Below are positions 15,173-19,550 of a stretch of DNA of 34,481 nucleotides, piece after piece. Source of the stretch: Nitrososphaera sp. (lineage in GTDB: Archaea > Thermoproteota > Nitrososphaeria > Nitrososphaerales > Nitrososphaeraceae). The notes below the pieces were generated by a model. The model searched no databases and was not told the origin of the DNA. It worked only from the letters and a program-made list of their open reading frames with translations. The DNA lies in contig NZ_JACAEH010000013.1 of NCBI RefSeq assembly GCF_013388945.1, positions 1 to 34,481 on the forward strand, given 5' to 3'. Every line of letters starts with the position of its first letter. Within the stretch, counting starts at the first letter, position 1. The position numbers were made by a program, and so were the translations under genes.

Positions 15173-15610
15173 ATGGGCTACCCTACCTCAGATGAACTTG
15201 TGATAGAGAAGCTGAGGAGCTTTGTCGGCCAGCTCAACGAAGAATGCGAGAAAGGCTCCGTTGTGGTGGTCGAAGGCAGGCGCGACGCAGAGGCGCTCTC
15301 AAGCATAGGATTCACAGGGAGCCCTGCAGTTTTCCACAACTTCAAGGGAGTCGCCGACTTTGTCGACGCGCACGGCCATACGGGCAAAAAGATAATCCTG
15401 CTCCTTGACATGGACAGGACGGGCAAGTATCTCACGGGGAGGCTCGTGTCTCAACTGCAGACGAGACGGAACAACGTGACGCTTTTCTACAAGCACCTTC
15501 TTGCAAAGATAACAAGCGGCAAGGTGAGGCACGTCGAGGATCTGACCATCTTTGCGCCTCGGATGTCGGGCATCACAGGTGCGAGAAAAGACCTCTACTT
15601 TTACACATAA
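15173..15610 (+). CDS. Small TOPRIM-domain protein (UPF0292-like)
   Basis: A 145-residue protein that is essentially one TOPRIM domain: the Glu of VVVVEGRRDAEAL near residue 35 and the DxD of LLLDMDRTGK near residue 79. TOPRIM folds coordinate metal for phosphotransfer in primases, topoisomerases and RNase M5. The protein resembles the archaeal UPF0292 family of stand-alone TOPRIM proteins. It lies directly upstream of dnaG, which also has a TOPRIM domain, with a 73-bp gap containing a separate TATA-like box. The shared fold and position suggest a nucleic-acid role, but the substrate is unknown. Confidence 0.82.
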   Translation: MGYPTSDELVIEKLRSFVGQLNEECEKGSVVVVEGRRDAEALSSIGFTGSPAVFHNFKGVADFVDAHGHTGKKIILLLDMDRTGKYLTGRLVSQLQTRRNNVTLFYKHLLAKITSGKVRHVEDLTIFAPRMSGITGARKDLYFYT

Positions 15611-15683: not shown

Positions 15684-17090
15684 TTGCCTAGCACAGGAAT
15701 AGTAAAGTATCATGTTAAGCTAAAGTTTGAAGTTGATGGTTTGGTCGAGAAGGCCGACATAATCGGTGCGATTTTTGGACAGACCGAAGGCCTGCTCGGA
15801 CCAGAGATGAACCTCAACGAGCTGCAGAAAGTGTCAAAGGTTGGACGAATAGAGGTAAACGTCGAGACGAAGGGAAGCGTGGCAAAGGGCGACGCCCTGA
15901 TACCCATGAGCACCGACATCTCGACGGCCGCGCTCATAGCGGCAGCCATCGAGAGCATCGACAAGGTGGGGCCCTTCCAGGCCAAATTCCAGCTCGTCGG
16001 CATCGACGACATCCGCGCAATCAAGAAGAAGGTCATAGTGGACAGGGCCAAAAAGATAGTACAGGACTGGGCGACTAAGACAATCTCTGAAGGCGAGGAG
16101 ATGTTAAAAGATGTCTACGACGCAAGCAAGCCCGGGAAATTGACCTCCTACGGCAAGGCCCAGCTTGCGTGCGGGACAGGCGTTTTTGATTCAGAGTGGA
16201 TAATCCTCGTAGAAGGCAGGGCAGACGTCATCAACCTGCTGCGCGCCGGCTACGACAACGCCATTGCAATCGAAGGCGCCAGGATTGACGAGACCGTCGT
16301 CAAGCTGACCGAGGGCAAGAAGGTCATAGCCTTCCTCGACGGCGACAGGGCTGGCGACCTCATCCTGAAAGAGCTTGCCGGAGTCGTGAAAATAGACAAG
16401 GTGCTTCGCGCGCCGACCGGCAGGGAAGTCGAGGAGTGCACGCCGCTAGAGATTACCGAGATACTGAAGGACGCGTATTCCGAAGTCCCGCAGCCGCGGG
16501 TTGAAGCGCCGGTGCAAGAAGAGCGCAGGCACGAGCGCCGCGACAGGGACGACAGGGGTGACCGTGGCTATCGCGACCGCGGACGTGGCGGCAGGTACCG
16601 CGACCGCGGCGGATACCGCGACCGCGACTACCGCGGAGGAGGCGGATACCGCGACCGCGGCGGATACGGAGACCGCGAAAGGGGCGACTATGAAAGGCCA
16701 CGCGAAGAGTACGCGCCTGCACCCGAAGCCGAACCTGTGCAGGCTCCAGTCACGCCGGGCCAGCCGTCTGCAGCAGCGGCAAACGACGCGCCGGAAGTGC
16801 TGACGGCAATCCGCGACGTGTACCCGCAGATAAACGAGACGCTCGAGGCTGTGATCCTCGACGGCTCGATGAAGCAGCTGCTGAAAGTTCCGGTATCCGA
16901 GGTAATCAAGAGGCTCGACACGGCAGAAGGCGCCAAGTACCTGGTGATAGACGGAATCGTCACCCAGCGACTGGTCGATGCAGCCGACAAGGCCGGCATC
17001 GAGTACATCGTGGGGCACAGGACTACAGGCGTCACCAAGGCAGCCGAGATAAAGGTCAGGACTTTTGGCGACGTGGGCATCACGAACTAA
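15684..17090 (+). CDS. dnaG: Archaeal DnaG primase with RG-rich insert
   Basis: A 468-residue archaeal DnaG, a TOPRIM protein with primase activity that also associates with the archaeal exosome. The N-terminal region (about 1-165) and TOPRIM domain (E177 in ILVEGRADV, D219 and D221 in AFLDGDRAGD) match the family. Residues about 281-340 form an Arg/Gly/Asp/Tyr-rich low-complexity insert, followed by a Pro/Ala linker and a conserved C-terminal domain (from about 362). The insert helps explain why the protein is longer than many archaeal DnaG proteins. The start is TTG at 15684, since the next residues (STGIVKYHVKLKFEVDG) are the expected N-terminus. The stop is followed immediately by the ATG of the riboflavin kinase gene, so the two are probably cotranscribed. 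Confidence 0.93.
   Translation: MPSTGIVKYHVKLKFEVDGLVEKADIIGAIFGQTEGLLGPEMNLNELQKVSKVGRIEVNVETKGSVAKGDALIPMSTDISTAALIAAAIESIDKVGPFQAKFQLVGIDDIRAIKKKVIVDRAKKIVQDWATKTISEGEEMLKDVYDASKPGKLTSYGKAQLACGTGVFDSEWIILVEGRADVINLLRAGYDNAIAIEGARIDETVVKLTEGKKVIAFLDGDRAGDLILKELAGVVKIDKVLRAPTGREVEECTPLEITEILKDAYSEVPQPRVEAPVQEERRHERRDRDDRGDRGYRDRGRGGRYRDRGGYRDRDYRGGGGYRDRGGYGDRERGDYERPREEYAPAPEAEPVQAPVTPGQPSAAAANDAPEVLTAIRDVYPQINETLEAVILDGSMKQLLKVPVSEVIKRLDTAEGAKYLVIDGIVTQRLVDAADKAGIEYIVGHRTTGVTKAAEIKVRTFGDVGITN
16524..16703 (+). repeat. Degenerate repeat encoding the RG-rich segment of DnaG
   Basis: Inside dnaG the unit TACCGCGACCGCGGCGGA recurs imperfectly between about 16567 and 16680. It encodes repeats of the form YRDRGG (for example YRDRG, RYRDRGGYRDRD, GYRDRGGYGD). 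The DNA is very GC-rich and internally repetitive, so its copy number may vary between strains. Confidence 0.8.
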
Positions 17091-17777
17091 ATGCCGGAGA
17101 TAAAGCTTCAGCACATACTGACCCTGGTGCAGCTCCTTGCCAAGGGGGCGCGCCACAACTTTGTAGAAGTCACTACGGGCGGCCTTGGCAAGAACATCGG
17201 CAGGTCGCAGCAGGCCGCGTCAAAGCACCTGCTCGACCTGGAGACAGAAGGCTACATAGAGCGCGTCAGGCGGGGCCAAAAGTTCGCAGTCCGCGTGACT
17301 GACAAGGGCTTTTCTGAAATAGAGAACCTGTTTGCGTCGCTGAAGTCCGCGCTCGAGTCGGCGCCTGCCTCAATAGACTTTGAAGGAACAGTCGTATCGG
17401 GGATGGGCGAGGGCGCCTACTACATGTCACTTGAAGGCTACAGGAAGCAGTTCAAGGAGAAGCTGGGCTACGAGCCGTACCCCGGGACGCTCAACGTAAG
17501 GCTTGTAGACCCGCTGTACATGACTGCCCGGCGCGAGCTTGGCAGGCATCCTTCAATATTCGTCGACGGCTTTAGCGACGGCACAAGGACGTACGGCTGG
17601 GTCAAGTGCTACCGCGCTACAATCGACGGGGTGGAAAACGCTGCCGCCCTTGTGCTGGAGCGCACGCACTACGACGACAGCATGCTTGAAGTGATAGCGC
17701 CTGTTTCGATAAAAGATTCAGCCGGCATCAAGGTGGGCGATAAGGTGAAGGTGCGCGTCCAGATTCAGATGCCGTAG
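17091..17777 (+). CDS. ribK: CTP-dependent riboflavin kinase with N-terminal HTH (RibK/RbkR-like)
   Basis: A 228-residue protein converting riboflavin to FMN with CTP. Residues about 1-80 form a winged helix-turn-helix (GRSQQAASKHLLDLETEGYI then RRGQKFAVRVTDKG). The kinase domain from about 95 shows GTVVSGMGEGAYYMSLEGY and YEPYPGTLNVRL, the characteristic archaeal RibK motifs. Fused HTH-RibK proteins are known in archaea as RbkR, where the HTH also represses riboflavin genes; whether this one regulates is not shown here. The ATG follows the dnaG stop directly. The 3' end overlaps the convergent FAD synthase gene by 13 bp. Confidence 0.92.
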   Translation: MPEIKLQHILTLVQLLAKGARHNFVEVTTGGLGKNIGRSQQAASKHLLDLETEGYIERVRRGQKFAVRVTDKGFSEIENLFASLKSALESAPASIDFEGTVVSGMGEGAYYMSLEGYRKQFKEKLGYEPYPGTLNVRLVDPLYMTARRELGRHPSIFVDGFSDGTRTYGWVKCYRATIDGVENAAALVLERTHYDDSMLEVIAPVSIKDSAGIKVGDKVKVRVQIQMP

Positions 17778-18391
17778 ATGGTGTCGCCAAGCTCTTCTTT
17801 CATCTTGGAGCTTTTGGAACCCGGAATAGGCGTCGAGAGCCTTATGACCTGCACGTCGAGGTTGCGCTTCTTGCAGTTTTCAGCGACGTCCTTTTCGCTG
17901 TGCGCCTGGTCGTAGCCAAGGGCTATGACGTTTGGCCTGACGTACTCGACTGTGTCATAAAGCGTGCCCTCCCTGCCAATGAGCGCAAGGTCGACAAAGC
18001 CAAGCGACTCGACAAGCTCCTTTCGCAGCGCCTCGTCGTGGTAGATCTTGCGGTCCTTCTTGATCTTTTGCGCGGTGGCCGTCCTTGCTATTACTACCAC
18101 AAGCACGTCGCCTGCTTCTTTTGCGGCCTTGAGCGTGTGTATGTGGCCGGGGTGTATAAGGTCAAACACTCCGCCCACAAGCACGACTTTGAGCGCGTCG
18201 CGCCCTATGAATGTCAGTTTTGTATGGTCTGCCTTTTCGACCATGCCCATCTTTGCAAGCCTGGCAATCCGCTCGTCAAAGAATTCCTTGCTCACCGCAA
18301 GCTTTGACTTTAGCCGCTCGTACGCAGGTATCGAGGGCTCTAGCGCGCTTGCGTAAAGGGAAGCGAGGACTGCCTTGTCTACCGGATCCAT
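17765..18391 (-). CDS. ribL: FAD synthase RibL with N-terminal winged helix
   Basis: A 208-residue archaeal FAD synthase, a nucleotidyltransferase adenylating FMN to FAD. The catalytic HxGH motif is in GGVFDLIHPGH (H80, H83), and the second nucleotide-binding element is near STPIPGSKSSKM. The domain begins at about residue 67; residues 1-65 (AVLASLYASAL through MGMVEKADHTKL) look like a winged-helix domain, which is extra compared with the roughly 150-residue stand-alone RibL. It converges with ribK, so consecutive steps of flavin-cofactor synthesis face each other. A TATA-like TTTATAGCG lies near 18433. A cytidylyltransferase of the glycerol-3-phosphate type is the alternative. Confidence 0.88.
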   Translation of the reverse strand: MDPVDKAVLASLYASALEPSIPAYERLKSKLAVSKEFFDERIARLAKMGMVEKADHTKLTFIGRDALKVVLVGGVFDLIHPGHIHTLKAAKEAGDVLVVVIARTATAQKIKKDRKIYHDEALRKELVESLGFVDLALIGREGTLYDTVEYVRPNVIALGYDQAHSEKDVAENCKKRNLDVQVIRLSTPIPGSKSSKMKEELGDTIYGI

Positions 18392-18445
18392 CTATATCCC
18401 GTGGCAGTGGTTGTGGGTCTGCATATCGCTATAAATCATTCGCAA

Positions 18446-19483
18446 CTATTTCCTTGCAATGTAATAGTGGTTGAATATGTCGCCGTCAATGTTCTTTATC
18501 TCTACGTTGCCAAAGCCTGCCTGGCTTAGCATCTCCAATGCCTTCTGCCTGCCCCAAACTGTGCCCAGGCCATCGCCTCCGTAGGCAAGAGATACCGTCA
18601 TGCAGTGCATTGTCGAGATGGTATAGAGCGTAGGCGCGAGCGGGTTCTCCATGTTTTCATGCAGGTTGCTCGACGCGGCGATGTCTGCCATCAGAAAAAC
18701 GCCGTCCTTGCGGAGCGCCCTGCTTATCCCCTTCAGGACCTTTGCCGGCTTTGCCTGGTCGTGTATCGTGTCAAACGCTGTTATCAGGTCAAACCTGCTT
18801 TTGTCTTCGAGCTTGGCGGCGTCTGCAATCTTGAAGTGGGCGTTTGCAAGCTTCATCTTTTTTGCCTCCGCCCTTGCGGCCGCTATGCCGTCGCGCGAAA
18901 TGTCGTAGCCATAGAACCTGCTTTTTGGAAACGCCCTTGCCATGAGGTTTATGCCGTGGCCTCCGCCGCAGCCCACGTCAAGCACATCGACGCCTTCTCT
19001 CAGTCTGTCGGCCATGCCTGTGAGGGGCAGTATCTGGTCGACAAGCCTTGCGTCAAAGACGCGCGCAGTCTCTTCTGCCTGGAGCTCCTGGAATTTCGGG
19101 TACGCCGAATAGGGAACCCCGCCGCCCCTGCGGAAGCACTCCACTATCCTGTCCTCCACGTTTCCCATGAGCGCAATGTACTGCGCAAGCATGGACAGGT
19201 TGTCGATTCCTGCAGCGCGGGTCAGGACGGCAGCGTGCTCCGGCGGCAGCCTGTACTTGCCGGTTGCAGCGTCGTACTCTACAATCCTGCCAGTCACCAT
19301 GCCGCCGAGCCACTCGCGCACATAGCGCTCGTTCAGCTTTGCAGCCTTTGCAATCTCTTGGCTTGTCGCAGGCTCCATCCTGGACATGGCGTCAAAGAGG
19401 CCCGTCCTGTGGCCGATGCTTGTCATGAGGCAGAGCATGCCGTCGTTTAAAATCGAGAGCATCCTTTCGGGAAAGTTTGCCAT
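18446..19483 (-). CDS. SAM-dependent methyltransferase with N-terminal winged helix
   Basis: A 345-residue class I methyltransferase. The N-terminal part (about 1-90: LMTSIGHRTGLFDAM, TSQEIAKAAKLNERYVREWL) is the winged-helix dimerisation domain found in O-methyltransferase-like enzymes. Motif I is VLDVGCGGGHG at about 167-177, followed by FYGYDIS and the FDLITAFDTIHDQAKP acidic loop. It resembles the Rv2258c-type family, whose substrates are largely unknown. I chose the ATG at 19483 (MANFPERML); the frame runs upstream to 19531, but that extension overlaps the divergent promoter. Substrate not predictable from sequence. Confidence 0.85.
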   Translation of the reverse strand: MANFPERMLSILNDGMLCLMTSIGHRTGLFDAMSRMEPATSQEIAKAAKLNERYVREWLGGMVTGRIVEYDAATGKYRLPPEHAAVLTRAAGIDNLSMLAQYIALMGNVEDRIVECFRRGGGVPYSAYPKFQELQAEETARVFDARLVDQILPLTGMADRLREGVDVLDVGCGGGHGINLMARAFPKSRFYGYDISRDGIAAARAEAKKMKLANAHFKIADAAKLEDKSRFDLITAFDTIHDQAKPAKVLKGISRALRKDGVFLMADIAASSNLHENMENPLAPTLYTISTMHCMTVSLAYGGDGLGTVWGRQKALEMLSQAGFGNVEIKNIDGDIFNHYYIARK

Positions 19484-19550
19484 GACCTGACAGCGTCGAT
19501 TGTGGCAAATAAGCCTTAAGCAAATAAGCAACCTGCGCCATCAATATCCG

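Follow-up and report, generated by a model that had tools for sequence, protein, structure and literature searches.

Convergent riboflavin kinase and FAD synthase genes in a Nitrososphaera species: an RbkR-type RibK and a RibL with a winged helix that probably does not read DNA

The window discussed here, the whole stretch of 34,481 nucleotides that was analysed from a contig of Nitrososphaera sp., carries two convergent genes for flavin enzymes, and the product of each appears to have a winged helix at its N-terminus. The interpretation that we favour, and think probable, is that RibK is an RbkR-type kinase/regulator and that RibL is an FAD synthase with a lineage-specific winged helix that probably does not read DNA. 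The initial annotation had proposed that the two domains are DNA-binding-like modules for cofactor sensing. For RibK homology and an invariant motif agree with that proposal, but for RibL a variable helix 3 and a non-basic wing speak against it.

Gene order

The ribK gene lies at 17091-17777 on the forward strand (228 aa) and ribL at 17765-18391 on the reverse strand (208 aa), with a tail-to-tail overlap of 13 bp (17765-17777), as had been described. ribK starts at the base after the stop of dnaG (15684-17090, forward), which encodes an archaeal DnaG-type protein and is itself preceded by a gene for a small Toprim-domain protein (15173-15610, forward). A putative TATA-like stretch (18430-18436, reverse) lies some 40 bases upstream of the start of ribL. 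Directly upstream of ribL there is a gene (18449-19531, reverse) for a methyltransferase with an Rv2258c-like winged helix (HTH_65, E 1.3e-38), a further enzyme carrying a winged helix. The organism is probably a relative of the soil ammonia-oxidising archaea.

Convergent pairing of ribK and ribL is widespread and the length of the overlap is incidental. In our nearer set the genes are convergent in all 44 loci that hold both, a count that includes repeats such as L003 and L033. The overlap is exactly 13 bp in 13 of the 44 and the spacing otherwise runs from a 27-bp overlap to a 741-bp gap, the value of 233 for L047 being false as a contig end cuts that locus. Since the length varies in this way we rejected a functional meaning for the 13-bp overlap. 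In the deeper set both genes are found in 28 of 31 genomes, as convergent neighbours in 20, as same-strand neighbours in one and apart in seven, with the separated genes on one contig in two cases and on different contigs in five.

RibK, an RbkR-type protein

Residues 101-223 of RibK match CTP-dep_RFKase (DUF120, PF01982) in Pfam with E 7.5e-41, and this and the alignment with 3cta place the CTP-dependent riboflavin kinase domain at residues 97-223 (17379-17759, forward); the MJ0056 chain 2p3m also matches the kinase (E 6.1e-17). The best solved relative is 3cta/5trd, with E 4.3e-31 over residues 22-224, and we take 3cta to be TA1064. RibK has the same order of domains as these RbkR structures, a winged helix and then the DUF120 kinase, and its SQQxxS helix aligns with that of 3cta. 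The winged helix occupies approximately residues 8-80 (17112-17330, forward), as judged from the 3cta alignment (from residue 22), the model NF010762 (from residue 8) and conservation. The score against NF010762, 'winged helix-turn-helix domain-containing protein/riboflavin kinase', is 199.9 bits, below the model cut-off of 279, and matches of the N-terminus to Pfam winged-helix models are weak, with the best (E 0.00054) under the cut-off.

The recognition helix, residues 39-53 (17205-17249, forward), was placed by the 3cta alignment and not by a model. Within it S39-Q40-Q41 is invariant in all 35 of the genomes selected for the conservation analysis described below, and S44 is present in 97% of them. 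The wing has a mean charge of +3.2 and is positive in 33 of the 35. Given the 3cta/5trd match, the invariant S39-Q40-Q41 and the positive wing, RibK is by its sequence an ordinary RbkR-type protein, with its winged helix at the N-terminus and a conserved recognition helix, and would be expected to bind DNA. The suggestion that ribK carries the HTH of RbkR regulators is thus well founded.

The DNA sites of RbkR differ from lineage to lineage, and its DNA binding is reportedly altered by CTP and FMN. PMC8305020 lists rbkR of Haloferax, described as 'bifunctional as gene regulator and enzyme', with TA1064 as its reference, and the RbkR paper of Rodionova et al. 2017 is cited both there and in PMC10746257.

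RibL, core and N-terminal fold

MJ1179 is an archaeal RibL FAD synthase. In the window protein the nucleotidyltransferase core covers residues 68-200 (17792-18190, reverse), with residues 71-196 matching CTP_transf_like in Pfam (E 3.7e-12) and residues 70-189 matching the nearest solved sequence, 3glv from Thermoplasma volcanium (E 6.2e-24). It shares with archaeal RibL (3glv) the core and the HxGH motif, here HPGH at residues 80-83, but differs in the additional N-terminal winged helix and in having C173 as its lone cysteine. Two conserved cysteines are described for archaeal RibL in PMC11423594, although the same paper has an archaeal-type enzyme that is active and does not have them.

The presence of a winged helix beyond the RibL core had been proposed with modelling of the N-terminus set beforehand as the test, and a non-winged-helix fold did not appear. 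Residues 1-68 modelled alone with AlphaFold2 form a winged helix with mean pLDDT 95 and pTM 0.82, comprising three helices (3-17, 23-30 and 35-47), a short hairpin (strand residues at 50 and 59) and a final helix (61-65). From this model and VIA-align we place the domain at residues 1-66 (18194-18391, reverse). Helix 3, residues 35-47 (18251-18289, reverse), is poorly conserved, and the junction of wing and core at residues 59-68 (18188-18217, reverse) includes G63 and R64, both invariant in the 35 selected genomes.

VIA-align gave Z of 8 or above for 41 of 574 chains, it being understood that Z under 8, or higher for helical folds, may reflect a common arrangement. The best was 8pvt (Z 9.1, rmsd 2.3, 65 aligned), followed closely by MntR 4hv6 (Z 9.0, rmsd 2.6, 67 aligned) and Rio2 6fdn (Z 8.9, rmsd 1.9, 63 residues). 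The best 50 of the 574 align over 60-68 residues with Z 7.7-9.1. Their titles are mostly those of winged-helix regulators and Rio2, and among the matches listed MntR/DtxR/MarR-type regulators and Rio2 come closest. The RbkR chains 3cta and 5trd are absent from these best 50 of 574, which is evidence neither way. In Rio2 a winged helix precedes the catalytic domain, and the order is the same in RibL, but the enzymes are unrelated and it is the fold alone that is alike.

The window protein has no Pfam match in this region, Foldseek with the model gave no E under 0.1 (best 0.1), and among 21 relatives scanned a single member or a few reach the winged-helix models, with E 0.005-0.14 and the matched stretches not displayed. 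A one-to-one hhalign comparison of the RibL and RibK winged-helix profiles aligned 47 columns with probability 94.4, and the fold assignment stands on the isolated-domain model, VIA-align and this profile comparison. The AlphaFold2 model of full-length RibL has a mean pLDDT of 61, with the core below 50 in places and the domain blocks at 74-90, and is too poor in the core to reveal how the domain packs against it. We dropped a single-domain reading drawn from it, as the core was poor and filled the VIA-align list, and for the latter reason the N-terminal domain was modelled alone.

Comparison of the two winged helices

For conservation we used 35 genomes from 132 two-gene loci, selected for near-complete starts and RibL identity under 75%, a set that leaves out short RibLs by design. 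The genomes and measures were identical for both winged helices, with RibK as the positive control. The information content of helix 3 exceeds that of 94% of windows along RibK but only 13% of those along RibL, where just I42 (2.5) and L45 (3.6) reach 2.5 bits. Mean pairwise identity in RibK is 0.419 for the winged helix and 0.489 for the kinase, whereas in RibL it is 0.253 for the winged helix and 0.524 for the core. The RibL wing has a mean charge of -0.23 and is positive in 12 of the 35. Charge over the whole domain averages +4.7 for RibK (90 residues) and +1.3 for RibL (66 residues), the latter being net positive in 18 of the 35. The charge of helix 3 does not discriminate, with means of -0.03 for RibK and -0.26 for RibL, and in the window proteins it is -1 for RibK and +1 for RibL.

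By helix 3, wing charge and identity over the 35 genomes we did not find a conserved DNA-reading surface in RibL. The residues that are conserved are L9, L45, L59 and T60, at 83-91%, and the invariant G63-R64, and we read these as residues of the fold and the junction. K6, a basic position in helix 1, is retained in 89%, and this, the net positive domains and the undiscriminating helix 3 charge tell against our interpretation.

Upstream regions of the riboflavin genes

The biosynthesis cluster ribE-ribB-ribH-arfA-arfB-arfC is elsewhere in the genome, with arfA and arfB named by their type of sequence. A search for a shared operator upstream of riboflavin genes had been proposed as a check, and we found none. 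By eye no palindrome common to the ribE upstream regions was seen in 160 bp aligned from 10 genomes, and in 110 bp upstream of ribL at 23 loci, among them some duplicates and two that a contig end truncates, agreement was confined to TATA-like and closely related blocks. When ribE-operon and ribL upstream regions were compared, no common 16-mer was above shuffles in any of seven genomes. The best 16-base match was equalled by 13 to 60 of the 60 shuffles made for each genome, these being shuffles of two-base blocks and not true dinucleotide shuffles, and the nearest to a signal were G136 (13/60) and G121 (20/60). Sites for RbkR itself did not emerge from these comparisons either, a point against our interpretation, and nothing in them supports a RibL site.

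Two other observations relate to these regions. In three close relatives (L036-L038) an inverted repeat, GGCAATAG...CTATTGCC, was seen by eye to flank the TATA-like box upstream of ribL, and it is absent from the window. Two genomes of the same genus as the window, G132 and G169 (L006, L008, L193 and L194), have no match for ribE, ribB or ribH and weaker RibD_C matches, yet retain ribL and a ribK with an intact SQQ helix, and are thus likely to be riboflavin auxotrophs; one of the two is a single contig with 99% completeness.

Distribution of the RibL domain

Full-length RibL matches recur through our sample of the class Nitrososphaeria, and relatives of RibL match in 243 of 250 genomes of the sample of the phylum Thermoproteota, presumably the GTDB names for these groups. 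By a rather rough fragment alignment of 97 distinct RibLs, 85 have 46-55 residues between two anchors, and most therefore keep a full-length domain. Over helices 2-3 the alignment is poor for four loci (L117, L123, L126 and L130), and a hand count gives them 9-18 residues fewer between helix 1 and the G-R pair; three more that were flagged, L138, L139 and L212, are not counted as short, and L047 is cut by a contig end. The G-R pair was not located in five loci, three of genus g16, L131 with a very long frame and L142, a second-copy fragment. In genus g16 the RibL winged helix is absent from all four sampled genomes, including the fourth (L200), for which no part of the domain aligned, and RibK is full. 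At L227-L230 of this genus, where RibL is without its winged helix, the upstream DUF357 frame and RibK are retained. The domain is also present in the seven of 28 genomes in which ribK is not adjacent, in a shortened form in two of them, with G096 judged solely by a profile match from position 6 onward.

Outside the class we read 37 loci, and by eye the RibL N-terminus was assigned as DUF357 type in 23, core only in 12 and winged helix in two; two of the 23 were checked in Pfam (E 2.7e-16 and 2.7e-17). The two with a winged helix are G254 (L079) and G316 (L080), and we have thus rejected the view that the domain is a trait of one class. In a tree of 84 cores (FastTree, midpoint-rooted) L079 falls together with the class (support 0.858), and L080 is among core-only RibLs (local support 0.534). 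The N-terminal domain of RibL therefore varies across Thermoproteota, being a winged helix, DUF357 or none. DUF357-RibL resembles the window protein in having an additional domain at this end, but DUF357 is a Pfam family unrelated to the winged helix; a link between DUF357 and cytidylyltransferase is given in Table 1 of PMC6393860.

We also looked at 40 loci, most of them from family f2 (probably Nitrosopumilaceae) and with some genomes counted twice, and in 38 a DUF357 frame lies near ribL; 37 of the 38 frames are 347-404 aa. The two proteins checked (L237:1477-2526 and L051:417-1451), both from this class, are diphthine synthase with a C-terminal DUF357, and one of them is from the genome of the window, where it is located elsewhere than ribL. 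DUF357 thus occurs on diphthine synthase in these two proteins and on RibL itself in many other Thermoproteota, a possible link of diphthamide and flavin.

Role of the RibL winged helix

NadR and BirA are cofactor enzymes with an N-terminal DNA-binding-type domain, and RibL is like them in architecture but differs in the lack of a conserved DNA-reading face. A NadR-like RibL would be a second flavin-sensing regulator, its winged helix acting on its own or the rib-operon promoter under the control of FMN/FAD occupancy of the core. The order of modules, with the winged helix ahead of a nucleotidyltransferase of HIGH type, is that of NadR, residues 63-124 have a weak match to the NadR model PRK08099 (E 0.062), and both the full-length RibL in most of the class sample and the retention of K6 fit such a role. 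However we regard it as unlikely. A second DNA-binding cofactor sensor is unsupported because helix 3 is variable and the wing not basic on average, because g16 has lost the domain and at least four loci have a shortened form, in lineages where RibK keeps its own, and because no shared upstream element was found, with ribE-operon/ribL matches within shuffles in 7/7 genomes. That RibL is an FAD-sensing repressor is similarly improbable, and to our knowledge no FAD synthase is a repressor. A recognition helix may change fast in step with its operators, and the divergence is thus compatible with DNA binding inside a genus, but a system of two flavin-sensing winged-helix enzymes, in which RbkR responds to FMN/CTP at the rib operon while RibL reports FAD through a fast-evolving helix and genus-specific operators, seems to us very improbable indeed.

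Two other possibilities do not involve DNA reading by RibL. Its winged helix could pair with that of RibK, in a kinase-FAD synthase complex that hands on FMN or tunes DNA binding by RibK, and it is in keeping with this that the two domains can be aligned by profile and that ribK and ribL lie side by side and converge in 20 of the 28 deeper genomes and all 44 nearer loci. We think this doubtful, as convergent genes are not co-transcribed, the domain is kept in the seven genomes with the genes apart, and g16 has the RibK domain without that of RibL. The 25% mean identity, the loss in g16 and the shortening elsewhere could also mean that the domain is left over from an earlier DNA-binding fusion and is decaying, now without function, but G63-R64 is kept in all 35 selected genomes and the usual length in 85 of 97 RibLs, and a relic is hard to credit.

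We therefore return to our preferred interpretation of an RbkR-type RibK and a RibL whose winged helix probably does not read DNA. The winged helix of RibK most likely reads DNA, and the CTP-dependent riboflavin kinase fused to it would make FMN, which RibL, as FAD synthase, would convert to FAD. In this class the RibL domain appears to keep its fold and the junction G-R without a conserved DNA-reading surface, at the end where other Thermoproteota RibLs bear the unrelated DUF357. It is probably a structural or protein-contact module, such as an oligomer interface, a lid or a docking site.

Implications

Among the matches listed in our literature search no title or abstract opening names a winged-helix RibL, from which absence in print does not follow. 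The analysis tells RbkR, a known type of regulator, apart from a similar-looking fusion in the adjoining enzyme, and RibL offers a case, open to checking, in which a metabolic enzyme has recruited a winged helix that has no conserved DNA-reading face. The differing N-terminal domains of RibL in Thermoproteota are useful to know in annotation of FAD synthases and in the choice of constructs, and to take both proteins for regulators in error would lead studies of how ammonia-oxidising archaea control vitamins in the wrong direction.
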